64,000 bases of DNA, taken from contig NZ_JAEVFE010000005.1 of assembly GCF_016803135.1 (NCBI RefSeq), positions 124,001 through 188,000 of the forward strand, read 5' to 3'. Within the stretch, counting starts at the first letter, position 1. Each line of letters starts with the position of its first letter. Below are positions 39,589 to 53,617 of this stretch, one piece after another. The notes beneath the pieces were generated by a model, which was given only the letters and a program-made list of their open reading frames with translations, was not told where the DNA came from and did no database searches. Both the position numbers and the translations under genes were made by a program. Source of the DNA: Altererythrobacter sp. C41. Its GTDB lineage: Bacteria > Pseudomonadota > Alphaproteobacteria > Sphingomonadales > Sphingomonadaceae.

Positions 39589-40053
39589 TCACTCCAGCGG
39601 CAGCTCGGTCGTCGCCTTGATCTCCGACAGGGCGACGGTGGAATTGATCTCCTGAACGCCGGGCAGCTTGCTGAGCTGATCGAAGAAGAAACGTTCGTAG
39701 GCGTCGATGTCCTTCGCCACGATCCGCAGCATGAAATCCATCGTCCCCATCAGGACATAGGCGTCGAGCACTTCGGGGAAGCCGCGGATCGTCTCGCTGA
39801 ACTCGTCGAGATTGGCGCGTCCGTGGGCGTTGAGCTTCACCTGCGCGAAGACATGGGCGTTGAGGCCGACCTTGCGCCGGTCGACGATCGCCACGCGCTT
39901 ACGGATGTAGCCCTCGCGCTCGAGGCGGTCGATGCGCCGCCAGCAGGGGGAGGCGGAGAGGCCCACCCGTTCGGCGATCTGCGCCGTCGTCTGATTCGCG
40001 TCACGCTGCAATTCGCGGAGAATCTTTTTCTCGTATCGGTCGAGCTGGGTCAT
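39589..40053 (-). CDS. Lrp/AsnC family transcriptional regulator
   Basis: A 154-residue leucine-responsive regulator. The N-terminal helix-turn-helix (KKILRELQRDANQTTAQIAERVGLSASPCWRRI, with ERVGLSASPCWRRIDRLE as the recognition part) is followed by a ligand-sensing RAM domain ending GVQEINSTVALSEIKATTELP. ATG 40053 is chosen because it gives the normal family length. It is divergent from the amino-acid dehydrogenase gene, whose start lies 129 bases away, so it very probably controls that gene in response to a branched-chain or aromatic amino acid. Confidence 0.92.
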   Translation of the reverse strand: MTQLDRYEKKILRELQRDANQTTAQIAERVGLSASPCWRRIDRLEREGYIRKRVAIVDRRKVGLNAHVFAQVKLNAHGRANLDEFSETIRGFPEVLDAYVLMGTMDFMLRIVAKDIDAYERFFFDQLSKLPGVQEINSTVALSEIKATTELPLE

Positions 40054-40181
40054 CTGTTTCTCATAATCCCACATCTCGGGCAGGAACATCCCCCAAAGAA
40101 GCTGCACCGCCGCCAAAGCGAGCAAGTTTCTCCGGCGGACCGGTGCGATGATCTGCGCGAGCTCGTGAAGGAGAGACTTGC

Positions 40182-41234
40182 ATGGTTGCCCGCCCCGCCC
40201 GCCTGACCCCGCCGCTGCAGTGCGTGCCGCTGCGCGACCCCGAGAGCGGTCTCGAAGGCGTGATCGTCATCCACTCGACCGCGCTGGGGCCGGGTGCCGG
40301 CGGATGCCGCTTCTGGAGCTACCCGGACATGGACGGGGCGCGGGCCGATGCGATGCGGCTGGCGGAAGGGATGAGCTACAAGAACGCGCTCGCCGGCCTG
40401 CCGCTCGGCGGGGCCAAGGCGGTCCTGCGCAGGCCGGGGGGAGAATTCGACCGGGCGCGCCTGTTCCACGCCTTCGGCCGCGCGGTCGAGGAACTCGGCG
40501 GGCGCTACGTCACGGCGGAGGATGTCGGCACTTCGGTCGCCGACATGCAGGACGTCGCAAAGGCGACGCGCCACGTCGCGGGCCTGCCGCCGGCCGAAGG
40601 GCGCGCGGGCGGCGACCCCTCGCCCTGGACGGCGCGGGGCGTGTTCGAATCGATGCAGGCCGCGGCCGCCTTTGCGCTCGGCAGCGAGTTGCGCGGCCTG
40701 ACAGTCGCCGTGCAGGGAACCGGCAACGTCGGAGCGGATCTCTGCCGCCATCTCGCCGAAGAGGGTGCGCGCCTGGTGATCGCGGACCCGAGCCCCGCCC
40801 GGCGGGAGGAGCTGCGCGTCGCCCTCGGCGCAAAGGTCGTCGGAGTGGGCGAGATCGCCGAAGTCGAGGCCGACGTGTTCGCGCCCTGCGCGCTCGGCGG
40901 AGCGCTGACCCGCGAGAGCGTCGGCAAGCTCCAGGCGCGCCTGGTCTGCGGCGCCGCGAACAACCAACTCGCCAGCCCCGAGGTCGGCGCCATGCTGCTC
41001 GACCGCGGGATCGCCTACGTGCCCGACTATGTCGCGAACGCGGGCGGGATCATCAGCGTCTCCGCCGAGTACCTTGGCGAGACCGAAACGGATGTGGCGC
41101 AGCGTGTCGCCGCCATTGCCCCGCGCGTTGCCGAGATCCTCGAGCGCGCCGCGCACGAGAGCCGCTCGCCCGCCACCGTTGCCGACGAGATGGCGGAAGA
41201 AGTTATCGGCCGGGCGCAGCAGGCGGCGGCCTGA
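40182..41234 (+). CDS. Leu/Phe/Val-type amino-acid dehydrogenase
   Basis: A 350-residue NAD-dependent dehydrogenase that deaminates branched-chain or aromatic amino acids to 2-oxoacids. The catalytic Lys region GMSYKNALAGLPLGGAKAVL (about residue 65-80), the Asp in RYVTAEDVGTSVADM, and the Rossmann motif VQGTGNVG (about 184) are clear. GAAGGAGAG precedes ATG 40182. The divergent Lrp-type regulator and the small ACT-like gene that follows both point to amino-acid control. Which amino acid is used cannot be decided by eye. Confidence 0.92.
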   Translation: MVARPARLTPPLQCVPLRDPESGLEGVIVIHSTALGPGAGGCRFWSYPDMDGARADAMRLAEGMSYKNALAGLPLGGAKAVLRRPGGEFDRARLFHAFGRAVEELGGRYVTAEDVGTSVADMQDVAKATRHVAGLPPAEGRAGGDPSPWTARGVFESMQAAAAFALGSELRGLTVAVQGTGNVGADLCRHLAEEGARLVIADPSPARREELRVALGAKVVGVGEIAEVEADVFAPCALGGALTRESVGKLQARLVCGAANNQLASPEVGAMLLDRGIAYVPDYVANAGGIISVSAEYLGETETDVAQRVAAIAPRVAEILERAAHESRSPATVADEMAEEVIGRAQQAAA

Positions 41235-41247
41235 GGCGCATCTCGCC

Positions 41248-41493
41248 ATGCACCGGTTCCGCATCGACGCGATTGCCGATCCGCAGTCGCTGCCGCGCGT
41301 CACCGGTGCATTCGCGCAGCGCGCGATAATCCCCGATACCCTGTCGGCGCGCTTCGACGGCGAGGCCGTACGGATCGAAGCGACGATCTCAGGGCTGGAC
41401 GCCCGGCAAGCGGCCGTCATTGCGGCGAAGCTGGGCGCAACCGTGGCGGCGGTCGCGGTGAGGCTGGAGGCAGTGGAGGAGGCGTTCGCCTAA
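41248..41493 (+). CDS. Small ACT-like domain protein, 81 residues
   Basis: A short protein beginning MHRFRIDAIADPQSLPRVTGAF and built like a single ACT domain: a beta strand, the DPQSLPRVTGAFAQRAI helix, then RIEATISGLDARQAAVIAAKL. Stand-alone ACT proteins include the IlvM subunit of acetolactate synthase. It begins 13 bases after the dehydrogenase stop and may sense the same amino acid. The frame stays open upstream inside the dehydrogenase gene, but that part is a shadow. The stop overlaps the convergent dipeptidase gene by four bases. Confidence 0.55.
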   Translation: MHRFRIDAIADPQSLPRVTGAFAQRAIIPDTLSARFDGEAVRIEATISGLDARQAAVIAAKLGATVAAVAVRLEAVEEAFA

Positions 41494-42680
41494 GGTCGAG
41501 GTTCCCCGCCCTGCGCGGCTAGGATGCGCAGCACGTTGCCGCTCCACATCTTCTCGATGTCGGCATCGGAATAACCTGCAGCCTCGAGCCGTTCGGTCAC
41601 CTTGGGCAGCGCCGAAATATCCTCGATCCCCGCAAGGCCGCCGCCGCCGTCCCAGTCGGCGCCGAAGCAGATATGGTCTACCCCGCCGACTTCGATCGCG
41701 CGCAGGACCATCGCCATGTAGTCTTCGAAATCGGCGGCCCACATCGGTTCGGTCTTGTCGAGTTCGCGCCACTTGCGGGTGAGTTCGGCCTGCTCCTCCG
41801 GTGCCATCCCGCCGATCTGCTCGTACTGCCCGAACAGCTCGGCCCGCGCCGGAGACATGTTCATCTCCGACATGAAGATGGTCGAGATGCACATCGCGCC
41901 GCCTTTCGCCGCGAGCTTGCGCAGACGCTCCTCGTCGAGATTGCGCGGGTGATCGTAGGCCGAGCGCAGGCTCGAATGCGACAGGATGATCGGATACTTC
42001 GACAGCTCCAGAAGCTGGTCGAACGCGGCGTCCGAAGAATGGCTGGCATCGATGACGATGCCGAGCCGGTTCATCTCCGCCACCCATTTCCTGCCGAGGG
42101 GACTCAGGCCGCTCCAGCGCGCTTCCCCGGTCGCCGAGTCCGCGAACTGGTTGGTCGCCGAATGGACCGGGCCGGCCATGCGCACGCCCTTGTCGTAGAA
42201 TTCCTGCAGCAGCGAGAGATCTTCGCCCAGCGGGTAGCTGTTCTCGATCGACTTGAACGCGATCAGCTTGCCTTCGCCGTTGAGCCGCCGCGCATCGTCG
42301 GCGGTCAGCGCCGGAGCGATCGCACTGCCGTTCTCCGCAACCACGCCATCGATCAGGTCGGACCGCTCGCGCGCGAACGCCAGCGCATCGGCGTAACCCT
42401 GCGGTGTCAGCGGCCCCTGCTCGGTATAGATGACGAAGAACCCGCCATCGAGCGCGCCGTCCTTCATCCGCGGAATGTCGAGCTGGACGAGGTCGTTCGC
42501 CAGCGCGTGCCGGTCGGCGAAACTCCACCCTTCGCGCTCGAAATGAAGCGGCGTGTCGAGGTGAGTGTCGAGCACGAGCATGTCCGCGTGAAGCGATGCA
42601 GGCCCGGCGGGTTTCTCCTCGCCCACGGCCGAGCAGGATGCGAGCGCCGTGGCGGCGAGCAGCAGGGCGGGCTTCTTCAT
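41490..42680 (-). CDS. Membrane dipeptidase (peptidase M19), lipoprotein
   Basis: A 396-residue exported lipoprotein (lipobox LASC) of the M19 renal-dipeptidase family, zinc enzymes that split dipeptides, including those with a C-terminal D-residue. The full metal site is visible: VLDTHLDTPL (His-x-Asp), KSIENSYPLG (bridging Glu), VIDASHSSD and LSHSSLRS (His), and CFGADWDG (Asp). It is the last gene of a run of six on this strand, joined to the preceding hydrolase by an ATGA overlap. Role proposed: releasing D-Glu or other D-amino acids. Confidence 0.9.
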   Translation of the reverse strand: MKKPALLLAATALASCSAVGEEKPAGPASLHADMLVLDTHLDTPLHFEREGWSFADRHALANDLVQLDIPRMKDGALDGGFFVIYTEQGPLTPQGYADALAFARERSDLIDGVVAENGSAIAPALTADDARRLNGEGKLIAFKSIENSYPLGEDLSLLQEFYDKGVRMAGPVHSATNQFADSATGEARWSGLSPLGRKWVAEMNRLGIVIDASHSSDAAFDQLLELSKYPIILSHSSLRSAYDHPRNLDEERLRKLAAKGGAMCISTIFMSEMNMSPARAELFGQYEQIGGMAPEEQAELTRKWRELDKTEPMWAADFEDYMAMVLRAIEVGGVDHICFGADWDGGGGLAGIEDISALPKVTERLEAAGYSDADIEKMWSGNVLRILAAQGGEPRP

Positions 42681-44254
42681 TTCTTGTCCTCCACGGGCTT
42701 CAGATCGAGATCCTGATAGTCCCAGCTGAAGTCGGCGATAACGCTCACCGGCTTCATGGTCACGCCGGTCACCTTGCCGTCCGCATCGAGCGCGAAGGTA
42801 ACGTAGGCGGGCTCGATCGCCGGATCGTCGAATTCGGTGACGAAGCTGTCGTATTGCCAATGCTTCAGCCGCCCCGCCATGTCGGGCGTGGGGGTGAAGT
42901 CGATTCTCAGGCCCTCGGGCGTGGCACCGATCACGACGTCGCCGTACCACGCATCGCGGTACCGCCCCGCGTAGCGCGCGAGATCGAGCGAGGGGCCGAC
43001 ATCGACCGGCGAGGCTTGCGCCTGTTCGAGGTATTCCTTGCCCCCCTGCAGCCGGGCTTCGAACCAGTCCTGCCACTTGGTCGTCCAGTCGAAATCGGGC
43101 TGATCGAGATAGTGGTCGAGCAGGTCGTAGGTCAGGCCGAGGATCATTCCGCTGTCCTCGCTGTTCATCATGATCGCGAAACCGACGTCCAGATCCGGGA
43201 TCATCACCACGCGGGTGATCGAGCCGAACACACCGCCGCTATGCTGGACGATACGGTGTCCGCGATAGTCCTGCACCTGCCAGCCGAGCGCATAGGCCTG
43301 CTGCGTGGGCTGTGCGGGCTTCAGACTGTCGGGCAGTTCGGTGATGGGCATCGGCGTCACCGGCGTCCACATCTCCCGCGCCTGCTCCTCGCTGAACAGC
43401 CGCCCGCCGCCGGGCAGCGCGCCGTGTGCGAGCTGGATCTTGAGCCAGGCCGCCATGTCCTCCGCGCTCAGCGCAAGCCCGCCTGCGGGTGCGGCGCTGC
43501 GGCCGAGTTCGTCGCGCTCGTCGAGCACCTGCTGCGGCCCGAGACCTCGCAGCACGCCCGAGAGACGGGCATGCGGCCACGAGCGGTTGGGCGTGCGGAA
43601 CCGGTCCGCGCTGTCGCTGGTCGCGTTCTCCATCCCGCCTGCGCGCAATACGCGGTCGCGCATGAAGACTTCCCAGGTCTGTCCGGTGACTTCCTCGATC
43701 AACTGTCCGGCCACGGTGTAGAGGATGTTGTCGTAGGCATAGGCGGAGCGGAAGCTCGTCTTCGGCTTGAGGAAGGCCACGCGCTCGACCGTCTCGCGGC
43801 GAGTGAGACTGCTGCGCGGCACGAACAGCAGGTCGCCCTGCCCGAGCCCCAGACCGCTGCGATGGACGAGCAGGTCGCGGATCGTGATCTCGCGCGTGAC
43901 CCAGGGGTCGTACATGCGGAACCAAGGCATGTGCTCGATCACCGGATCGTCCCACGCGATCTTGCCCTCGTCTACGAGGATCGCGAGCGCCGCGGCCGTC
44001 ATGGCCTTGCCGGTCGAGCCGGTCTGGAACAGCGTTTCGGCGTCGACCGGTGCAGGCTCGCCCAGCTTGCGCACGCCCCAGCCGCGCGCGAGCGTCGTCT
44101 CTCCGTCCTCGACGATCGCGATCGCCACGCCGACGGCGCCGATCTCCTGCCGCAGCGCCTCGACGCTTTCGCCGATATCCGCCGGCGGATCGGCCAGCGC
44201 GGGTGCCGAGCATATCAGCAGGAACGAGAGGGCAAACAGGCGGACGTGGCTCAT
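42677..44254 (-). CDS. Beta-lactamase-fold serine hydrolase (class C/D-aminopeptidase-like)
   Basis: A 525-residue exported serine hydrolase. A signal peptide ending SAPALA is followed by the class C fold: nucleophile QTGSTGKAMT (Ser-x-x-Lys, about residue 75), YAYDNILY (Tyr-x-Asn, about 165) and QHSGGVFG (third motif, about 335). A C-terminal beta domain of about 130 residues resembles the lipocalin-like domain of D-aminopeptidases. It is joined by ATGA overlaps to the permease gene before and the dipeptidase after. True beta-lactamase activity is less likely than peptide or ester hydrolysis. Confidence 0.85.
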   Translation of the reverse strand: MSHVRLFALSFLLICSAPALADPPADIGESVEALRQEIGAVGVAIAIVEDGETTLARGWGVRKLGEPAPVDAETLFQTGSTGKAMTAAALAILVDEGKIAWDDPVIEHMPWFRMYDPWVTREITIRDLLVHRSGLGLGQGDLLFVPRSSLTRRETVERVAFLKPKTSFRSAYAYDNILYTVAGQLIEEVTGQTWEVFMRDRVLRAGGMENATSDSADRFRTPNRSWPHARLSGVLRGLGPQQVLDERDELGRSAAPAGGLALSAEDMAAWLKIQLAHGALPGGGRLFSEEQAREMWTPVTPMPITELPDSLKPAQPTQQAYALGWQVQDYRGHRIVQHSGGVFGSITRVVMIPDLDVGFAIMMNSEDSGMILGLTYDLLDHYLDQPDFDWTTKWQDWFEARLQGGKEYLEQAQASPVDVGPSLDLARYAGRYRDAWYGDVVIGATPEGLRIDFTPTPDMAGRLKHWQYDSFVTEFDDPAIEPAYVTFALDADGKVTGVTMKPVSVIADFSWDYQDLDLKPVEDKK

Positions 44255-45390
44255 GACGATACCTCCGGTCGGGGTTCGCGGCCTCCGCGCAGGAGGCGAT
44301 AAGTGCCGATGCCTAGCAGCGGCACGACGAAGACGGCGAGGAACAGCCAGGCAAGGAAGCGGTAGCCGCTGGCGATCAGGTCCACGAGACCCACGCGAAC
44401 GGCGATGAACATGCATCCGGCGAGGATAGCCGCGCCGATCAATGCGCGCAGGGCCGGCCCCGGTGCCGGGCGTCCGCGCGATTCCAGTGCGCCGGCGATC
44501 CGTTCGTTGACCGCATGGATCGCGCCGACACCGCTTTCGAGCAGCGCGGTGAAGATCATCACCTGGAAGAGGACGTGAAAGCCGGGCACGTCCATCTGCC
44601 GCAGGAGGAAGTCGGACGGCAGGATCTCCGCTCCGATCGCCGGGTAGTAGGCCATCATCGCGGTGAAGAAGAGGATCGCCGGCAGCATGGTCAGGGGCCC
44701 GGCGACGACGCCCGCGATCAGCGCATCGCGCCGGCTGGTCAGGTGGCGCAGCACCGGCAGGATCACCACCGCGCCGACGATGTTGTAGCTCGCATAGGTG
44801 AACCCGCCCGCCATCCAGTCCCCGGCCGGTGACGGCGCGGCGGCGAAGCCTTGTCCGATCAGATCGCCGAAGCTCGTCAGCGCGAAGACGATGAACAGCG
44901 CGTAGACCGTGTAGATCAGCATCGAGGCGTATTTGAACAGGCGCTCGACCCCGGCAGTCCCGAAGGCGGTCGTCACCAGGATCGCCGCCGCCAGCAGGAT
45001 CGAACCTGCCAGCTCCGGCCAGCCGAAGGTCGCCGCCCCGATCGCGCCCGCTGCGGCGCCGAACACCGCGACGATCAGGACGACGAAGATCAGATAGGCA
45101 GCCTCGAACAGCACCCAGCCGGGTCCGAGCAGCCCCTTGAAGAAAGCGCGGTAGTCGTAGGCGTTCATCGCCCGGGCGAGCGCGAAAGTCAGCGCCGCGA
45201 CGACGCTCCAGATCAGCGTCGCCAGCAGCATTCCCGCCAGCCCGCCCCATGGTCCGGCCGGCACGAAATACTCCGCCAGTTCGCGCCCCGTGGCGTAGCC
45301 TCCGCCGATGATCACCGCCTTGAGCGCGAAGCCCGGCAACAGGAAGCGCTGGAACCAGTTCCCCCCGCCGACGGCTTCGCCCGTGCTCAT
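44251..45390 (-). CDS. YkvI-family membrane transporter (APC superfamily)
   Basis: A 379-residue inner-membrane protein with about ten helices, matching the YkvI group (COG3949): FLLPGFALKAVIIGGGYATGRELAEY near the start (in part: IIGGGYATGRELAEY), NIVGAVVILPVL in the middle and LESGVGAIHAVNERI. Members belong to the amino acid-polyamine-cation superfamily but substrates are mostly unknown. Its place between a DgcN-like enzyme and a hydrolase, with four-base overlaps on both sides, suggests uptake of D-glutamate or a related amino acid. That substrate is inference. Confidence 0.75.
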   Translation of the reverse strand: MSTGEAVGGGNWFQRFLLPGFALKAVIIGGGYATGRELAEYFVPAGPWGGLAGMLLATLIWSVVAALTFALARAMNAYDYRAFFKGLLGPGWVLFEAAYLIFVVLIVAVFGAAAGAIGAATFGWPELAGSILLAAAILVTTAFGTAGVERLFKYASMLIYTVYALFIVFALTSFGDLIGQGFAAAPSPAGDWMAGGFTYASYNIVGAVVILPVLRHLTSRRDALIAGVVAGPLTMLPAILFFTAMMAYYPAIGAEILPSDFLLRQMDVPGFHVLFQVMIFTALLESGVGAIHAVNERIAGALESRGRPAPGPALRALIGAAILAGCMFIAVRVGLVDLIASGYRFLAWLFLAVFVVPLLGIGTYRLLRGGREPRPEVSS

Positions 45391-46427
45391 GCGAGGCAGC
45401 TGTCGACCAGTGCGGCGAACGCGGCGCCCCCGCGGATCGGGTCGGCGACCGGGATGTTGAGCCGCTCGCGCTCCGCCGCCATCAACGCCTCAGCCTCCCC
45501 GGCGCTCAGACTTGAGGTGTTGAGGCTGACGCCGCCGCAGCGGATCACCGGATTGGTGCGGCTACCGAGGCGGATCGTGAGATCGACCACCTCCTCGACC
45601 GAGGGCAAGACGAAGTCTTCGAGCCCGAGGATCACCTTGCGCGCGGGATCGTGGCAGACGACGAAGACGTCGGGCTGGCTGCCGTGCAGCAGGCCGAGCG
45701 ACACCGCGGCGTAGGCCGGGTTGAAGATCGAGCCCTGCCCCTCGATCACGTCCCAGTGATCAGCGGGCGCGTCGGGGCTCAGGATCTCCGCCGCGCCTGC
45801 TTCGAAATCGGACACGACGGCATCCATCGGGATACCGCCGCCCGCTATCATGATGCCCGTCTGGCCCGTGGCGCGGAAGTCCGCGTCGATCCCGCGCTCG
45901 ACGAAGGCGCGGTGCAGCGCGAGCGCGGTGTACTTCTTGCCCAGCGCGCAATCGGTGCCGACGGTCAGCAGCCGCTTCCCGCTGCGCTTGCGCCCGTTGC
46001 CGACCGGAATGCCCGGCGGCGGGCTGCGCACGTCGATCAGCCGCCGCCCGGTGCGCCGTGCGGCCTCGGCCAGTGCCGGAATGCTGTCGAGCCGGACGTG
46101 GAGGCCGCTGACGATGTCGAGTCCCGCTTCCATCGCCTCGACCAGCGCCGCTACCCATCGCTCCCCGATGATCCCGCCCTGGTTGGCCACCCCGATCACC
46201 AGCGAGCGCGCACCCGCACTGCGCGCCTCGGCCGGCGTCATGCGCGGCAGACCGGTCGAAACCGCGCAGCCGTCCACGCCGAACTCGCCGACGCAGCGGT
46301 CGGCCGCCCAGTCGGCCAGCCCGAACGCCGTCTTGGCGAAGCTCGGCTCGGTCGTGTCGCCGAGGAACAGCAGATAGGGCTGCGGCAGCACCATGGCGTC
46401 GGCCCGCCGGCCGATCGGAGCGTTCAT
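45387..46427 (-). CDS. dgcN: DUF1611 protein, D-glutamate N-acetyltransferase (DgcN-like)
   Basis: A 346-residue DUF1611 protein with a P-loop-like VGTDCALGKKYTALALH (about residue 155) and FRATGQTGIMIAGGGIPMDA. DUF1611 proteins include DgcN, which acetylates D-glutamate in the DgcN-DgcA catabolic route; a DgcA-like epimerase is encoded 3.4 kb upstream in the same region. ATG 46427 is chosen because GGGGAGGGG lies eight bases before it, whereas the GTG three codons earlier overlaps that site. Overlaps the permease by four bases. Function is transferred from the family. Confidence 0.8.
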   Translation of the reverse strand: MNAPIGRRADAMVLPQPYLLFLGDTTEPSFAKTAFGLADWAADRCVGEFGVDGCAVSTGLPRMTPAEARSAGARSLVIGVANQGGIIGERWVAALVEAMEAGLDIVSGLHVRLDSIPALAEAARRTGRRLIDVRSPPPGIPVGNGRKRSGKRLLTVGTDCALGKKYTALALHRAFVERGIDADFRATGQTGIMIAGGGIPMDAVVSDFEAGAAEILSPDAPADHWDVIEGQGSIFNPAYAAVSLGLLHGSQPDVFVVCHDPARKVILGLEDFVLPSVEEVVDLTIRLGSRTNPVIRCGGVSLNTSSLSAGEAEALMAAERERLNIPVADPIRGGAAFAALVDSCLA

Positions 46428-46446
46428 CTCGTCCACCCCTCCCCGC

Positions 46447-48633
46447 TCAAAAGGCCATGTCGACCGCGAGGCCGATCGTGCGGGGTTGCAGCGGCGAGAT
46501 GGCCAGGAAACTGGGCTGGTTGAGCCCGTCGGCCAATGTCGTCCGCCCCATCTCCCCTTTGTTGTCGAGCAGGTTGCGGGCGTAGGCGCGCAATGTCCAA
46601 TGGTCGTCGAACGTCACCGAGGCGTTGAGATCCACCGAGGTGTACGGCTTCGCCCGGGCCGCGAGCGGATCGCTCTCCACGAGCGAAAGGCGGCTGCCGG
46701 CATGGCGGACGCCGACGCCGAAGCTTCCGGTGTTTGATGCGCCGAGCGCGAACTCGTAGTCGGCGCGCACCGCGCCGCTGAACTTGGGAACCGCGGGCAG
46801 GCGGTCGCCGTCCATGCCGCTGATCTCGGGCACGTCCTCGCTCAAGGTCGCGTCGGTGTAACTGCCGGTCGCACTGATCGTCAGGCCGGGCGACGGGCGC
46901 AGGGCGATGCTCCCTTCGAAGCCCTTGCTCGTCGCCTTGCCCCCGTTGGCGCCGCCGGAAACCCCGCCGAACGCGCGCGTCACCTGGATGTCGGTCCAGT
47001 CCATCCAGAAGGCTGCGATGTCGAGAGAGATCATGCGGTCGGCGAGATCGCCTTTGAAGCCGATCTCGTAGTTGGTCATGCGGTCTGCATCGACGCTCGG
47101 CGGCACGTTGGGGACGATCACGTTGGGGCCGCCAGGGCGGTAGCCCGTCGCCACCCGTCCGTAGAGCATCGCGTTCTCGTTCAGGTGGATTTGCGGGCTG
47201 ACCGAGAAGGTCCACACGCTTTCGGCCGACTTACCCGGGTCGTTCGCGCTCGGCACGATCGCCCCCTCGCTGATCTGACGGAAGGTCTGTTCGTTGCGCG
47301 CCCAGCGCAGGCCGGCGGTGATGTCGAACATGTCGCTGAACTTGTAGGTGCCGTTGCCGAAGACCGCGTATTCCTTGTAGGTCGCAGGCAGGCCGACGGT
47401 CGCCAGCGGATCGAGCGGTGCGATCGGATTGCCGTCCATGTCGAACGAGCGGACGAGTTGGACGTTGCTGGTCGTCTCGTCGGTGAAGAAGCCGCCGATC
47501 ATCCATTCGAACCGGTCGCCGGTCGGCGATGCGAGGCGCACTTCCTGGGTCCACTTCTCGAGACCCAGGTCGAGCGCGAAAGGCGTGATCCCCGGAGCAA
47601 TCGCGCCGCCCGTGAGCAGCGGGAAGAGAACGCCGAAGGCGTAGCTCGCGTCCTGCAACTGCCGGCTCTGCGTCTCGCTGTAGGTGGTTGCGGAGGTCAG
47701 TATGGCCGGACCGAAGTCGTAGTCGATCGTCGCCGAATAATACTCGAGATCGATGTCGTAGGATTCGGGGACGAAATTGTTGAACGAGCGCCCGTCGCCC
47801 AGCCGGTTGCCGTCGAGATCGGCGGCGTAGAGCGCGTTGCCGTCGGAATCGAGGGACTGCCAGATACCGGCCAGCTTGACGCTGAGTTCCGGTGTGGCCT
47901 GCCACAGCAGGGCAACGCGGCCGCCGCGCTGTTCGTAATCGTTCTGATCCTCGAGCGCGGGATTGTTGATGCTGTCGACCCAGCCGGGCGTGCTGCGCCA
48001 GGCAAAGCTGCCGCTGATCGCCAGCTTGCCCTCCACGATAGGCACGTTGACCAGCGTCTGTGCTGCCCAGCCGAGTCCATCGCCCCCCTTGATGCTGAAT
48101 CCTTCGACACCGCCCCGTACCCGGAACTCGCGGGTGTCGGGCTGTACGGTCACGTATTTTACCAGGCCGCCGATCGAACTCGCGCCATAGAGCGTGCCCT
48201 GCGGTCCCTTGAGCACTTCAACCCGTTCGAGATCGTAGGGCATCAGATCGATGGTGAACGCCCCGGCGCGATTGTAGATCGCGCTCGATCCGACCGGCGC
48301 GTCGTCGAGATAGATGCCGACCGTCTGCGCGGCCGAGATCGGCGCGACGCCGCGCAAGGTGATCGTGGTCTGTCCCGGCGTGCCGAAGTTGGAGACCTGC
48401 ATGCCCGGCACGTACCCAGCATAATCGACCAGGGAGACGGCGCCCTGCTCCTTCAGTTCCTCCCCGCCGACGACACTGATCGAGATCGGCACGTCCTGCA
48501 CGTTCTGCACCCGCTTCTGCGCGGTGACGACGATCTCGTTTTCGGTCTCGACCGCCGTATCCTCCTGCGCCTGCGCCGGCATGGCGGCCGCGAAGGCGAG
48601 CACGCTTCCTGCAATCCAGAGATTCTGTTTCAT
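46447..48633 (-). CDS. TonB-dependent receptor of the D-amino-acid/dipeptide cluster
   Basis: A 728-residue outer-membrane receptor when read from its own ATG (48633). It has a normal signal peptide (ending MPAQAQ), TonB-box-like NEIVVTAQKR, a plug with LRGVAPISAAQTVGIYLDDA and a barrel ending GLAVDMAF, the pattern of the FyuA-like receptors common in sphingomonads. The frame is open upstream with no stop through the whole dipeptidase-like gene, so a fusion protein is formally encoded. An intact signal peptide after the junction argues for separate translation. It probably imports peptides or muropeptides, as inference. Confidence 0.88.
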   Translation of the reverse strand: MKQNLWIAGSVLAFAAAMPAQAQEDTAVETENEIVVTAQKRVQNVQDVPISISVVGGEELKEQGAVSLVDYAGYVPGMQVSNFGTPGQTTITLRGVAPISAAQTVGIYLDDAPVGSSAIYNRAGAFTIDLMPYDLERVEVLKGPQGTLYGASSIGGLVKYVTVQPDTREFRVRGGVEGFSIKGGDGLGWAAQTLVNVPIVEGKLAISGSFAWRSTPGWVDSINNPALEDQNDYEQRGGRVALLWQATPELSVKLAGIWQSLDSDGNALYAADLDGNRLGDGRSFNNFVPESYDIDLEYYSATIDYDFGPAILTSATTYSETQSRQLQDASYAFGVLFPLLTGGAIAPGITPFALDLGLEKWTQEVRLASPTGDRFEWMIGGFFTDETTSNVQLVRSFDMDGNPIAPLDPLATVGLPATYKEYAVFGNGTYKFSDMFDITAGLRWARNEQTFRQISEGAIVPSANDPGKSAESVWTFSVSPQIHLNENAMLYGRVATGYRPGGPNVIVPNVPPSVDADRMTNYEIGFKGDLADRMISLDIAAFWMDWTDIQVTRAFGGVSGGANGGKATSKGFEGSIALRPSPGLTISATGSYTDATLSEDVPEISGMDGDRLPAVPKFSGAVRADYEFALGASNTGSFGVGVRHAGSRLSLVESDPLAARAKPYTSVDLNASVTFDDHWTLRAYARNLLDNKGEMGRTTLADGLNQPSFLAISPLQPRTIGLAVDMAF

Positions 48634-49779
48634 CGTCTCACCCCCACACTGCGCGAGCAGCCGGCGGAAATTCCCGCCGAGCACCGCCCGGATGTTGTCG
48701 TTGGAATAGCCGCGGCGGATCAGTTCCTCGGTCAGATCGAAGATCTTGCGGGGATGATCGAAGCCGTCGATGTCGATCTTGTCGCGGAAGCCGTAGCTTC
48801 CCTTGTAGCTCGCCTTCAGGGCCGCGTATTCGTCCGGCACCATGTCGTCGTAACCATGGAGATCGGCATCGGAGCCGATGCCTACGTGTTCGATACCGAC
48901 CAGCTTCGCGACGTGATCGATATGATCGACCATGTGGCTCACGCTCGTCGGATCGGCCGCGCGAATGAACATCCGCACGCCGGTAATACCCATCACACCG
49001 CCCTTGGCGGCGAGCGCCCTGATGGCCTCGTCGGTCTTGACCCGCGGGTGATCGACCAGCGCGCGCGCATTGCTGTGCGTGATCGCGATCGGCCCCTGGG
49101 CGATGGCGATCGCATCGAGCGTGGTCCGGTCGCCGCAGTGCGATACGTCGACCAGCATCTTCGCCTCTTCCATGGCAGCGATGATCGCCGCACCGAAATC
49201 GCTGACGCCCCCGTCGCCCCGCTCCGTGCTGCCCGAACCGATCAGGTTCTGGCTGTTGTAGGTGAGCTGAGCGCACCGCAGGCCGAGGCTGCGAAAGCGG
49301 GCGACGTCTTCCACCGTCTCGAACTGCTCGGCATTCTGGATGCCCATGATGACCGCGCACTTGCCCTCGGCCTTGGCCCGGTCGAGATCCTCCACGCGGC
49401 CGGCGAGGGTGAAGACGTGGCTGTTGCGCCCCACGAACCCATGCCACCCGGCAAGGTATTCGAGCGCCTGCTCCTGCGCGTCCGGTCCGCCCAGGCCGAC
49501 CGCGTTGTGAAAGCCGGTGATGCCGCTGGCCCAGAACTCCGCCGCTTCGGCATCGGTCAGCCGGTGCGCGACATAGGCGGGGTTCATCGTGATCTTGAGC
49601 GGCGCGAGCATGTCGATGACGAGCGTTTCGGCCACGAGGTCGACCGCACGGCGCGAGTAGGTGCGCCCCGGCGCGCCGGAGAAGGCGAATGCACCCGTGG
49701 CGATCATCGGCGCCGCCACGGCTGCGCCGATCGCGCCCGCCATGACCGCGCGCCGCGTCGCGGGGAATGAACGCGCCAT
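48634..49779 (-). CDS. Dipeptidase-like (M19 family) exported protein, no own stop, altered metal site
   Basis: About 382 residues of an M19-family protein with a Tat-type start (ATRRAVMAGAIGAAVAAP). His in LVDVSHCGDR and ITHSNARA and the Asp in GIGSDADL are kept, but the family His-x-Asp near the N-terminus is replaced by VIDMLAPLK and the bridging Glu region reads GIQNAEQF. A complete active site is therefore doubtful. The frame continues into the receptor gene; a one-base shift near the end would give a natural end VWG and stop at 48638. A TTGACA promoter at 49840 and GGGAGGAAGGA support ATG 49779. Confidence 0.78.
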
Positions 49780-49811
49780 TCCTTCCTCCCTCAAGATTAT
49801 CTGTTTTGCCG

Positions 49812-49853
49812 AGTATTTGTCCTGATTGGAAAATTGTCAACCCATTCAGGACA
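49812..49853 (-). promoter_or_regulatory. Promoter with dyad operator before the dipeptidase-receptor operon
   Basis: On the minus strand TTGACA (49840-49835), a 17-base spacer and AATACT (49817-49812) form a promoter. A dyad, TGTCCTGATTGG at 49819-49830 with its near-complement at 49842-49853, straddles the -35. The stretch 49820-49840 is identical to 52955-52975. Confidence 0.7.
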
Positions 49854-49863
49854 TATCCGCCAA

Positions 49864-50871
49864 CTAATGCCCCCAGACCTCCGGCGAGCAGTGGATCATG
49901 CCATCGCGGTAGCGCACGCCCGGCGTGCGATCGCGCGCGAGGAAGGTCGGCCCGTCGAGATCGACGATGTCGCAGAGCTGGCCCACGAGGTAGGAAGGCG
50001 CCATCGACAGGCTCGTGCCCATCATGTTGCCGACCATGACCTCGAGCCCGAGCTGCCGTGCCTGGCGCGCGATCGCGAGCCCCTCCGTCAGCCCCCCGCA
50101 CTTGTCGAGCTTGATGTTCACCACATCGAATCGCCCGACCAGCGAGGGCGTATCGGCGAGCGACAGTGCACTCTCGTCCGCGGCGAAAGGCAGCGGGCGC
50201 TTCAGTCCGTCCAGATCGCTCTCCTGCCCGCGGGGCAGCGGCTGTTCGAGCACCGCCATTCGATGCTCGACGAGCACCTCGAGCAGGGCCGGAAGCGTCT
50301 CCCGCCGATAGCCCTGGTTGGCATCGACGCCGATCCATGCCTGCGGCCGCGCTGCGCGGATCGCCGCGACACGGGCCGCGTCCTCGTCAACGTCGCCGGT
50401 CAGCTTGACCTTGACCGGCGCCAGCGGGTCGATCGCGCGCGAGGCAGCTGCCATCGCCTCGGGCGTGTCGGCGCCGAGCGTCAGCGTCGAGCGCAGCGGG
50501 CGCGGTTCCGGGAGGCCTGCCAAGTCCCACACCGGCCTGCCGGTGCGCTTCGCCTCCAGATCCCAGTAGGCGCAGTCGAGCGCGTTGCGCGCGCCGCCGG
50601 GCGGTAGCAGCTCCTGCAGGTCGTCGCGCGTTGCCCCCGCCTCGATCGCGCTCCGCACCCGTTCGGCCTCGGCGAGCATGTGGTCGGCGTCGTCGCCGAG
50701 GTAATAGACTCCCGCACCCTCGCCCCGCCCGCGATGCTCGCCGTCCACGATCTCCGCGACGAGCAGTGCAGTCTCGCTGAACACATGGCCGGAGATGCGG
50801 AACGGCTGGTGATAGGGAAAGCGCTCGACCCGAAGGTCGAGCGCCAGTTTCCGCCTGTCTCGCGTGGCCAT
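49864..50871 (-). CDS. dgcA: Enolase-superfamily dipeptide epimerase / N-acetyl-D-glutamate racemase (DgcA-like)
   Basis: A 335-residue enolase-superfamily enzyme of the muconate-lactonizing subgroup. Catalytic residues: Lys pair in PVKVKLTGD (about residue 160), metal ligands in IGVDANQGY, LEQPLPRG and FAADESALS, and the second Lys in VVNIKLDKCGG. The group contains L-Ala-D/L-Glu epimerases of murein recycling and DgcA, which racemises N-acetyl-D-glutamate. A DgcN-like gene in the same cluster favours DgcA, but Ala-Glu epimerase is a real alternative. ATG 50871 shares one base with the previous stop (TGATG). Confidence 0.78.
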   Translation of the reverse strand: MATRDRRKLALDLRVERFPYHQPFRISGHVFSETALLVAEIVDGEHRGRGEGAGVYYLGDDADHMLAEAERVRSAIEAGATRDDLQELLPPGGARNALDCAYWDLEAKRTGRPVWDLAGLPEPRPLRSTLTLGADTPEAMAAASRAIDPLAPVKVKLTGDVDEDAARVAAIRAARPQAWIGVDANQGYRRETLPALLEVLVEHRMAVLEQPLPRGQESDLDGLKRPLPFAADESALSLADTPSLVGRFDVVNIKLDKCGGLTEGLAIARQARQLGLEVMVGNMMGTSLSMAPSYLVGQLCDIVDLDGPTFLARDRTPGVRYRDGMIHCSPEVWGH

Positions 50872-52850
50872 CAATAGACCATCGAGAAGCCGTAGAGATT
50901 GAAGGCGAAGGTCACCCAGACCAGCACCAGCGCCGCCAGAACCAGCAGGGCGCCGCCGACCTTCATCGTCCACCGCCGCCCGTCGCGGAAGCAGAGCCAC
51001 AGGTGCCATGCCGAAGCAGCGAGCAGACCGATCGTCGCCACCGGCGTCAGCACGCGCAGCAGGATGATGAGCCAGTCGAGCGGGCCGCCGAGGCTGCCGA
51101 TGTCGCCCATGAAGGTCACCACCAGCATGACCCAGCCGAAGACCGCGAGCAGCACCAGCCAGGCGAAGATCCGCGACAGGCGCCACGCCTTGCGGGCATG
51201 GTCCTCCAGCGCAAACGTCGCCTGGAAGTGCCGGCGAACCAGCGCACGCACCGGCCAGGCGAGCGCGGCGAGAAGCACCAGCGTCAGGGCCAGAAGCAGT
51301 GCGGGCACCAGCCATGCGCCGTTCGTGCCTGCCGCGGCCGGTTCGAGCACCATGAACGGCGAGACCGCATCGGTGCTTACGCGAACGACGCGGCCGTCCT
51401 TCACTTCGGCAGCCAGCCGCTCACCGGTGGCAGTGTCTATCCAGACGAACGGCTCGACCTCCACCCAGTCGCGCGCAGCGGCGCTGAGGCCATCGAGCGC
51501 CGGCATGGCGATCTTGCCATCCTCGCCCACCACGATCTGCATCTGGCTGAGCAGGCCGAGCACACTCATGAAGTTCGTGAACGAACCGCGGCTCGACACG
51601 TAGTGGCCCGCCAACATCGCGGCATGCTCACGCGCAGTCTCCGGGTCGACCCGTGCGGTCGGGTCCGCGCCGGGCAGATAGCGGTCGGCGAATTCGTGGA
51701 ACAGTGCGCTGCGCAGCGCCTGCGCCGCCCCTTCCTTGCCCGCGCTGTTGACCGAGACGAACAGCCCGATGTCGTCCTCCGGGAACAGCCAGAGGTACGA
51801 GTGGAACCACTCCGTATCGCCGCCATGGCCGATCGCCCGGCGGCCGTTGACCCATTGCTCGTAGAAGCCGAGCGCCATCGTGTTGAGCGGCCCCACGCCC
51901 GGCGCACGATAATCGTGCATCGTCCGGGCAGTCTCCGGCTGCAGCAGGGCCCCTCCCTCGTTGAGGTGCGCCATCATGAACTTGCCCATCGCCGCGCCCG
52001 ATGCGGACAGGCTGCCTGCCGGTGCGGGAATGACGATCTCGAACGGCTTCGCCTTCTGGGCCACCGTCGGATAGCCGCTCGACATGAACGGCTGCAGCGC
52101 TGCCGGAAGCGGCTGACGGAAGGTCGCGTAACGCATTTCCAGCGGCGCGAAGATGTGCCGCTCGACATAGTCGTCAAACGGCTCTCCGCTCACCCGCTCG
52201 ACGATATATCCGGCGAGCGCGGTGGCGTAGTTGGAATAGGCGGGCGTCGTGCCGGGCGCGAAGACCCGCTCGGGCAGCGCCTCGCGCGCATAGGCCTGGA
52301 GCGGCATGACCGCATCCGGGTCGCTGCTGATCAGGTGGCGGATCGATTCCTCGAAACCGGCCGTGTGGGTCAGGATGTGGCGCAGCGTGATCGGCTCGCC
52401 CTCGTACGGCGGAATCTCGAAGTCGAGATAGGCGTTCACGTCCCCGTCGAGATCGAGCTTGCCCGCCTCGACCTGCTGCATCACCGCCGTCCAGGTGAAC
52501 AGCTTCGACACCGAACCGGGCCGGAACAGCGTGGTCGCCGGATCGACCGGTTTGCGCGTGGCGACGTCGGCGAAGCCGTAGCCCTTTTGCAGTACCGGCC
52601 CATCGCCGCGCACGACCACGACCACGGCGCCGGCAATCTGCCCGCGATCAAGCGCGAACGGCATGAAGCCGTCGAGCCAGGCCTCGACGTCGGCCGCATC
52701 GAGTTCGGCACGCTCGGTCTGTGCGGCCGACGCCGGCGGCACGGAGCTCTCCGGCTGTTCCGCCGGTTGCTGCGGCACCGGCCCCTGCGCTACCAGGGGC
52801 AACGCCAGCAGCGCGGCCAGACCGATCATCAGCTTGCGAACAAAACGCAT
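50871..52850 (-). CDS. Beta-lactamase-fold serine hydrolase with C-terminal membrane domain
   Basis: A 659-residue exported protein. After a signal peptide (ending LPLVAQ) and a Pro/Glu-rich linker comes a class C beta-lactamase fold: RPGSVSKLFTW (Ser-x-x-Lys, about residue 113), PAYSNYATALAG (Tyr-x-Asn, about 205) and AIGHGGDTEW (about 340). From about residue 510 there are four or so membrane helices, so the hydrolase faces the periplasm from the inner membrane. It leads the DgcA-like gene in one operon. A peptidase or esterase role is more likely than antibiotic resistance. Confidence 0.85.
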   Translation of the reverse strand: MRFVRKLMIGLAALLALPLVAQGPVPQQPAEQPESSVPPASAAQTERAELDAADVEAWLDGFMPFALDRGQIAGAVVVVVRGDGPVLQKGYGFADVATRKPVDPATTLFRPGSVSKLFTWTAVMQQVEAGKLDLDGDVNAYLDFEIPPYEGEPITLRHILTHTAGFEESIRHLISSDPDAVMPLQAYAREALPERVFAPGTTPAYSNYATALAGYIVERVSGEPFDDYVERHIFAPLEMRYATFRQPLPAALQPFMSSGYPTVAQKAKPFEIVIPAPAGSLSASGAAMGKFMMAHLNEGGALLQPETARTMHDYRAPGVGPLNTMALGFYEQWVNGRRAIGHGGDTEWFHSYLWLFPEDDIGLFVSVNSAGKEGAAQALRSALFHEFADRYLPGADPTARVDPETAREHAAMLAGHYVSSRGSFTNFMSVLGLLSQMQIVVGEDGKIAMPALDGLSAAARDWVEVEPFVWIDTATGERLAAEVKDGRVVRVSTDAVSPFMVLEPAAAGTNGAWLVPALLLALTLVLLAALAWPVRALVRRHFQATFALEDHARKAWRLSRIFAWLVLLAVFGWVMLVVTFMGDIGSLGGPLDWLIILLRVLTPVATIGLLAASAWHLWLCFRDGRRWTMKVGGALLVLAALVLVWVTFAFNLYGFSMVY

Positions 52851-52947
52851 CGCTCTTTCCCCTCCCCTACGGCTCCGCTCGTGACACCTTGCAGCATCTT
52901 CGGCGAGCCCTTACCAAGGAACAACAGTTGTTGGCCCGATGGGGACA

Positions 52948-52975
52948 TAATGATCCTGATTGGAAAATTGTCAAA
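52948..52975 (-). promoter_or_regulatory. Promoter sharing the 21-base element, before the serine hydrolase
   Basis: On the minus strand TTGACA (52975-52970), a 16-base spacer and CATTAT (52953-52948) form a promoter 98 bases before the hydrolase start. The stretch 52955-52975 is identical to the one at 49820-49840. It lies 19 bases before the divergent regulator start. Confidence 0.65.
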
Positions 52976-52993
52976 CCCGAGTTGGAAGATTTG

Positions 52994-53617
52994 ATGGCGG
53001 ACGCTGCCGATCCGCCGACGCTGGGAACGGTGTTGCGCGGCATCCGCTCGCGAAACGGCTGGACGCTCAAGGAGATGAGCGCCCGGTCCGGCATCCCCGT
53101 GTCGACGCTCTCGAAAGTCGAGCATGACCGCCTGACGCTGAGCTATGACAAGCTCCAGCAGCTCAGCCAGCGGCTCAACATCCGCATGTCCGACCTGTTC
53201 GCGGAAGGCGCGGAGGAGAGCGCGCCGCGCGTGACCGGCCGGCGCAGCATCGGTACGCTGGACCAGGCGGTGCGCGTCACCACCGACAACTACGATTACC
53301 ACTACCTCTGCACCGATCTGCGCCAGAAGCGCATGATCCCGATCATCACCCGCATCCGCGCGCACAGCGCCAGCGAATTCGGCGACCTCGTCCGCCACCA
53401 GGGCGAGGAATTCATCTACGTCCTCGAAGGCCAGATCGAGGTGCATTCGGAATTCTACGACCCCGTCCTGCTCAAGGCCGGGGAAAGCATCTATCTCGAT
53501 TCGTCGATGGGCCATGCCTACGTGGTCGCGAAAGGCTGCGAGGAAGCGCTCGTTCTCGGCGTCTGCTCAAGCGCCGACGAAGGCTTGATGGATTCGCTGA
53601 TGAACCTCCACGGCTGA
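52994..53617 (+). CDS. XRE-family transcriptional regulator with cupin domain
   Basis: A 207-residue regulator: an XRE helix-turn-helix (TLKEMSARSGIPVSTLSKVE, about residues 22-41) followed by a C-terminal cupin (RHQGEEFIYVLEGQIEVHSE, about 133-152, and SMGHAYVVAKG). XRE-cupin proteins commonly control catabolism of amino acids and amines in response to a ligand held in the cupin. ATG 52994 is preceded by GGAAG at five bases; the frame is open further upstream but has no ATG there. It is divergent from the hydrolase-dgcA operon, whose promoter element recurs at the dipeptidase operon, so it is the obvious regulator of both. Confidence 0.88.
   Translation: MADAADPPTLGTVLRGIRSRNGWTLKEMSARSGIPVSTLSKVEHDRLTLSYDKLQQLSQRLNIRMSDLFAEGAEESAPRVTGRRSIGTLDQAVRVTTDNYDYHYLCTDLRQKRMIPIITRIRAHSASEFGDLVRHQGEEFIYVLEGQIEVHSEFYDPVLLKAGESIYLDSSMGHAYVVAKGCEEALVLGVCSSADEGLMDSLMNLHG

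Follow-up and report, generated by a model that had tools for sequence, protein, structure and literature searches.

Which D-amino acid is processed by a pair of enzymes resembling DgcN and DgcA when their genes are accompanied by those of an outer membrane receptor, exported hydrolases, a permease and a regulator? The question is posed by a locus at positions 41490-53617 of the window, by which we mean the whole stretch of 64,000 nucleotides analysed from Altererythrobacter sp. C41 (contig NZ_JAEVFE010000005.1, positions 124,001 to 188,000). D-amino acids form part of recalcitrant marine organic matter; in the known route D-glutamate is converted by DgcN to N-acetyl-D-glutamate, and this by DgcA to N-acetyl-L-glutamate. 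According to PMC12363236, acidic D-amino acids and their amides are racemised irreversibly by a route in which dgcN is the key gene; the pathway is also covered in PMC10845958.

A preliminary description regarded the locus as a cluster for scavenging D-glutamate and D-dipeptides. From the sequence, the scavenging idea is supported, while the D-glutamate label probably does not hold. We favour, at a probability of roughly 0.55, a locally regulated two-operon system for the scavenging of D-amino acid peptides, in which a paralogous DgcN-DgcA pair would act upon neutral, perhaps hydrophobic, D-amino acids. The coupling of such a pair to a receptor and exported peptidases had been called new, and our literature searches, the founding DgcN-DgcA paper aside, produced no description of this coupling or cluster; the DgcN-DgcA pathway itself is known from the two papers cited above.

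Organization of the locus

The region comprises eight minus-strand genes and a divergent plus-strand gene, and every gene named in the preliminary description (DUF1611, enolase, two M19, two beta-lactamase-fold, TonB, YkvI and XRE-cupin) was confirmed in its place. The features are as follows:

41490-42680, minus strand: M19a, an M19 dipeptidase (PF01244, 292 bits; nearest PDB entry 2rag, 406 bits) with a lipobox-like leader (LASC)
42677-44254, minus strand: BLA1, an S12 serine hydrolase with DUF3471 and a signal peptide (PF00144; motifs STGK/YDN/HSG)
44251-45390, minus strand: YkvI-type permease, a LeuT-fold amino-acid transporter according to its AlphaFold2 model
45387-46436, minus strand: DgcN-like DUF1611 protein (PF07755, 241 bits; NF041892, 451 bits against a cut-off of 480)
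46447-48633, minus strand: TonB-dependent receptor (PF00593, PF07715) bearing a signal peptide of its own, MKQNLWIAG...
48634-49779, minus strand: M19b, an M19-family protein with a Tat-type (twin-arginine-like) leader (PF01244, 255 bits)
49820-49840: putative promoter/operator element 2, TCCTGATTGGAAAATTGTCAA, upstream of M19b; the genome has just one further site
49864-50871, minus strand: DgcA-like enolase-superfamily racemase/epimerase (NF042940, 369 bits against a cut-off of 400; Gly29 at the Arg24-equivalent)
50871-52850, minus strand: BLA2, an S12 (beta-lactamase-fold) serine hydrolase (PF00144, 214 bits) with a signal peptide and C-terminal hydrophobic/membrane helices
52928-52975: putative promoter/operator element 1, core RGGACATAATGATCCTGATTRGAAAATTGTCAA, upstream of BLA2; conserved and noncoding
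52994-53617, plus strand: XRE-cupin transcriptional regulator (HTH_3 and Cupin_2) in a conserved divergent position; presumed start ATG 52994

Transcription of the minus strand runs BLA2, DgcA-like, M19b, receptor, DgcN-like, permease, BLA1 and M19a, which leaves the DgcN-like and DgcA-like genes approximately 3.4 kb apart. Adjoining genes overlap by 4 nucleotides at 42677-42680, 44251-44254 and 45387-45390 and by 1 nucleotide at 50871, start/stop overlaps which fit operons. Judged by eye from the translations, BLA1, BLA2, M19a, M19b and the receptor carry signal-peptide-like leaders. The open frame of the regulator begins at 52721 and crosses promoter element 1; the ATG at 52994 is the likelier start.

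Distribution and gene neighbourhood

Of 200 genomes searched at the level of the family, 49 encode DgcN-like proteins. By alignment-based classification the loci were sorted into an extended type, as in the window, in which receptor, permease, S12 hydrolases, M19 proteins and regulator are retained to varying extents, and a canonical type, which is a bare dgcN-dgcA pair (DgcN identity approximately 50%). The counts below cover 79 extended and 32 canonical loci. The neighbourhood counts are to be read as descriptive, since the queries came from extended clusters, some extended loci are duplicated across two collections, and the loci share descent. Within 10 kb of the 79 extended DgcN genes are found BLA2 (70), XRE (62), a cognate DgcA (60), YkvI (59), BLA1 (57), the receptor (50), a D-aminoacylase-like protein (42), M19a (40), M19b (31) and a POT transporter (22). 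The same distance around the 32 canonical genes holds a cognate DgcA in all cases, a D-aminoacylase-like protein in eight, and BLA2 and the receptor in one each; XRE, the YkvI permease, BLA1, M19a, M19b and the POT transporter are absent from all 32.

Congeners whose DgcN is 91-96% identical have the genes in the same order, and other genomes contain cognate clusters, so that the cluster is not due to chance; the gene set is a real conserved unit. The nearest named relatives of the window are in Sphingopyxis (DgcN identity up to 86%). Extended loci are carried, among others, by Sphingopyxis, Sphingomonas, Sphingobium, Novosphingobium, Sphingosinicella and Pacificimonas, by the gammaproteobacteria Xanthomonas sp. 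AmX2, Luteimonas, Pseudoxanthomonas, Dyella, Rudaea, Povalibacter and Steroidobacter, and by Duganella. Two genomes (G099 and G043) possess both types side by side (loci L033/L056 and L034/L058). The POT and D-aminoacylase homologs of the window's own genome lie on other contigs and are 27-48% identical to their cluster-linked relatives.

The DgcN-like and DgcA-like enzymes

As in the known pathway, a DUF1611 protein and an enolase-superfamily racemase occur together, and DgcN and DgcA are the best family matches of the two proteins. Both fall below the equivalog cut-offs listed above, which are passed by three bare pairs from the same bacterial family (515/426, 503/435 and 488/438 bits for DgcN/DgcA). 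Another extended pair scores 419/338 bits. When 134 DgcN-type proteins were placed in a tree, a starred branch (99) divided the branch of the window from the canonical proteins, among which lies the solved relative 7xrj.

Canonical (n=40) and extended (n=90) DgcN are told apart by four alignment columns alone, two of which show replacements of arginine: Ala for Arg44 and Leu for Arg270. In the numbering of the window Arg44 is present in 39 and Arg270 in all 40 of the canonical proteins, where the window has Ala and Leu; its P-loop (GTDCALGK) is retained. The DgcA-like protein has likewise kept the catalytic lysines, metal ligands and DxD motif (VKVKL, VDANQGY, LEQPL, ADES, NIKLDK, VDLDGP), and these, like the P-loop, are conserved in the canonical pair. 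Its position 29 is Arg in 40/40 canonical sequences, as against 60 Gly and 2 Asp among 62 extended ones; position 58 is Arg in 38/40 and Tyr or Phe in the extended set (n=62). The 20s and 50s loops change accordingly from RISRG and PYPRYGE to RISGHVF and GVYYLGDD in the window type. Position 29 is the equivalent of Arg24 of the L-Ala-D/L-Glu epimerases, which contacts the side chain of glutamate, a role known from work on the B. subtilis enzyme.

Two groups of dipeptide epimerases are useful for comparison. The L-Ala-D/L-Glu epimerases (E. coli YcjG, 1jpd; PDB 4gfi) belong to the same enolase subgroup and share the DxD motif, but they have the Arg at position 24 and the PYPRYGE loop where the window has GHV and GVYYLGDD, and the DgcA-like protein reaches 240 bits against a cut-off of 343. 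The T. maritima enzyme (2zad/3des), an L-Ala-D/L-Phe epimerase, also has Gly rather than Arg in its 20s loop (PF.I.GxV; PFHITGSV in 2zad, PFRISGHVF in the window), but is distant overall (74 bits).

Because pocket residues have changed in both enzymes, we argue that the substrate is not D-glutamate. With positive charge lost from both, the pair looks as would be expected if an acidic substrate had given way to a neutral one. Covariation of the arginines between the two enzymes was also tried as a statistic (73 neither, 38 both, seven in DgcA only, none in DgcN only) and dropped; the sign test has no power, since the tree needs just about two changes of the DgcN residue.

A further class of DUF1611 proteins has the motif RxxISGW, or one close to it, in place of RTHMRGL or RxxILG (loci L133, L135, L136, L146 and L147, from gammaproteobacterial and Bacteroidales metagenome-assembled genomes). 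Where the partner is visible it is a DgcA-like protein of another loop type (FRISGAEW/FRISNFEW), possibly a further substrate class.

Promoter elements and regulator

In the window, no operator emerged when the surroundings of the regulator were searched for generic palindromes. The intergenic region between XRE and BLA2 does contain a conserved stretch, RGGACATAATGATCCTGATTRGAAAATTGTCAAA, which is exact or near-exact in Sphingopyxis-type clusters and recognizable in the Xanthomonadaceae. Since 19 of 41 relatives have a TAG in the window's frame within it (column 20), element 1 is noncoding. The motif was obtained by a fixed-spacing half-site search: at a spacing of 4, 20 of 44 regions gave at least 10/12 matches, compared with approximately 1.5% in shuffles, and other spacings were at background. 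The element ahead of BLA2 (52928-52961) looks double, with CCYGATnRGGA and TCCTGATTRGAA as similar halves some 20 bp from each other; the element of M19b is single.

A position matrix trained on 31 sites revealed, outside the training set, a second copy in front of M19b, located at 49820-49840 in the window and shared by many relatives. One or more sites are present in 56/79 extended loci, a count which includes the training loci, and in 0/32 canonical and 0/16 other loci. Allowing up to three mismatches, the 21-bp core (TCCTRATYRGARAATTGTCAA) has exactly two matches in the 3.2-Mb genome, both exact and one before each operon, while a reversed-core control had none across the same genome. The reverse strand of the element reads TTGACA, -35-like, toward BLA2 in the operon direction, so that the conserved elements probably overlap the promoter.

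Most simply, BLA2-dgcA and M19b-receptor-dgcN-ykvI-BLA1-M19a would be two operons that share one local regulator, and it is likely that the XRE-cupin protein controls both via the two elements. Together with the conserved coupling, this dedicated promoter element supports the earlier view of a D-amino acid or D-peptide scavenging unit with receptor, exported hydrolases, permease and a regulator of its own.

Hydrolases, receptor and permease

BLA1 and BLA2 retain the SxxK, YxN and HxG motifs (SVSK/YSN/HGG in BLA2). Solved relatives of the S12 enzymes include alkaline D-peptidase, D-amino-acid amidase and ClbP, the first and last being PDB neighbours of BLA2.

The proposal that both M19-family proteins are peptidases fits M19a, whose metal ligands HxD, Glu, His and His are intact (HLD, SIEN, ASH, LSH) as in the membrane dipeptidases (2rag, 3id7, renal dipeptidase). 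M19b differs from these in having IDMLAP and GIQN in place of HxD and the metal-binding Glu, with both His kept. Since the two are missing throughout its subfamily (32 sequences aligned), M19b may not be an ordinary dipeptidase.

In the assembly a single frame (46447-49794) runs through M19b and the receptor without a stop. A genuine M19-TonB receptor fusion was considered and rejected: in the last M19b codons (48625-48650) relatives read CAAGTGTGG and the window CAGTGTGG, so that the single frame arises from one missing nucleotide, a deletion or an assembly error, which removes a stop that every relative having this junction of M19b and receptor possesses. The receptor itself still has an ATG and a signal peptide of its own. 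Its identity to homologs is 93-96% in congeners and 35-40% in many other, otherwise conserved clusters.

The permease has no match in Pfam or NCBIfam. Its AlphaFold2 model (pLDDT 87.5) has the fold of LeuT-fold (APC) amino-acid transporters, the best PDB matches being BasC (TM 0.72) and AdiC (TM 0.68).

Neighbouring genes

Adjoining the cluster, in the window and in several relatives, are an Lrp/AsnC-type regulator and a divergent leucine-dehydrogenase-like gene (39589-41234). The latter, of uncertain membership, is present in 8/79 extended loci (the window and seven more):

40182-41234, plus strand: leucine-dehydrogenase-like ELFV dehydrogenase; nearest PDB entries are leucine dehydrogenases

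It matches leucine dehydrogenases of the PDB with 270-299 bits and glutamate dehydrogenases with at most 91 bits, a weak hint at a hydrophobic L-amino acid product.

D-aminoacylase-like amidohydrolases also adjoin bare canonical pairs in the Sphingomonadaceae (loci L056, L057, L058, L064, L066, L068 and L069). As a guide to the substrate these neighbours were rejected as uninformative, because extended- and canonical-adjacent copies alike match D-aminoacylase over N-acyl-D-glutamate deacylase.

Proposed pathway and its alternatives

In the pathway that we favour the TonB receptor would import a peptide with D-residues. Members of the S12 and M19 hydrolase families often favour D-residues, and, to judge from their families, periplasmic BLA1, BLA2 and M19a would free D-amino acids or D-containing dipeptides. 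The YkvI-type permease, whose fold comes from the model, would carry an amino acid to the cytoplasm. There, as in the canonical pair, the DgcN-like protein would N-acetylate the D-amino acid and the DgcA-like enolase would turn the N-acetyl-D into the N-acetyl-L form, from which an unlinked deacylase may free the L-amino acid. The XRE-cupin protein would govern both operons through the conserved elements.

Several observations weigh against this scheme. DgcN and DgcA lost their arginines together, on one or two branches of the tree, and these losses constitute one observation rather than independent statistics. Arg44 and Arg270 of DgcN were singled out by their conservation, and the extended DgcA has gained two other arginines, 176 and 215, by which an acidic side chain might be held differently. 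M19b lacks the ligands noted above, the D-aminoacylase neighbours do not tell the substrates apart, and no obvious N-acyl-L-amino-acid deacylase was seen within the cluster. Lastly, binding of the XRE-cupin protein to the elements is read from their position.

The alternative that survives best, though we consider it unlikely, is that the DgcA-like protein is an L-Xaa-D-Yaa dipeptide epimerase with a neutral or hydrophobic Yaa, that the DUF1611 protein acts on some other compound, and that D-containing dipeptides are degraded without N-acetylation. The DxD motif of dipeptide epimerases binds the dipeptide amino group and is retained here (DLDGP), but the same DxD occurs in canonical DgcA, though NCBI names the latter N-acetyl-D-glutamate racemase. 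The resemblance of the 20s loop to 2zad and the POT di/tripeptide transporters in 22 related loci would suit such an enzyme; the higher score with the DgcA model than with the Glu-epimerase models, and frequent co-occurrence with DgcN-like proteins, would not.

Scavenging of D-glutamate, or of murein-peptide D-glutamate, by the known DgcN-DgcA route is rather improbable. It would account for the best family matches, M19 and S12 peptidases would suit murein or D-peptides, and the two gained arginines leave room for an acidic substrate. Against it stand the missed equivalog cut-offs, passed by pairs of the same family, the loss of nearly invariant arginines from both enzymes and the coexistence of a canonical pair in some genomes; in addition, no murein-peptide-specific gene (gamma-D-glutamyl-diaminopimelate peptidase, amidase or AmpG) was recognized in the cluster.

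That the cluster degrades one specific natural product with D-residues, such as a nonribosomal peptide, rather than D-peptides in general is very improbable. In its favour, receptor divergence among otherwise conserved clusters suggests a changing ligand, and the S12 enzymes are related to ClbP and alkaline D-peptidase. Against it, the clusters contain generic peptidases and POT transporters and are widely distributed, in Sphingomonadaceae, in Xanthomonadaceae and in relatives of Steroidobacter.

Implications

While the canonical genes form a bare pair, those of the window belong to a putative regulon with receptor, permease, hydrolases and XRE-cupin regulator. We tentatively propose, as a possibility short of an even chance, a second D-to-L system free of pyridoxal phosphate and flavin in alpha- and gammaproteobacteria: a paralogous pair for neutral or hydrophobic D-amino acids with one regulator, its own receptor, exported D-peptidases and a permease. 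If this is true, the receptor-coupled pair would extend DgcN-DgcA-type use beyond acidic D-amino acids and their amides. Labelling every DUF1611 protein as a D-glutamate acetyltransferase would then overcount D-glutamate use in metagenomes, where dgcN serves as a marker gene. Taken with the other DUF1611 motif classes, DUF1611-enolase pairs would constitute a family of D-amino-acid-specific racemisation modules.

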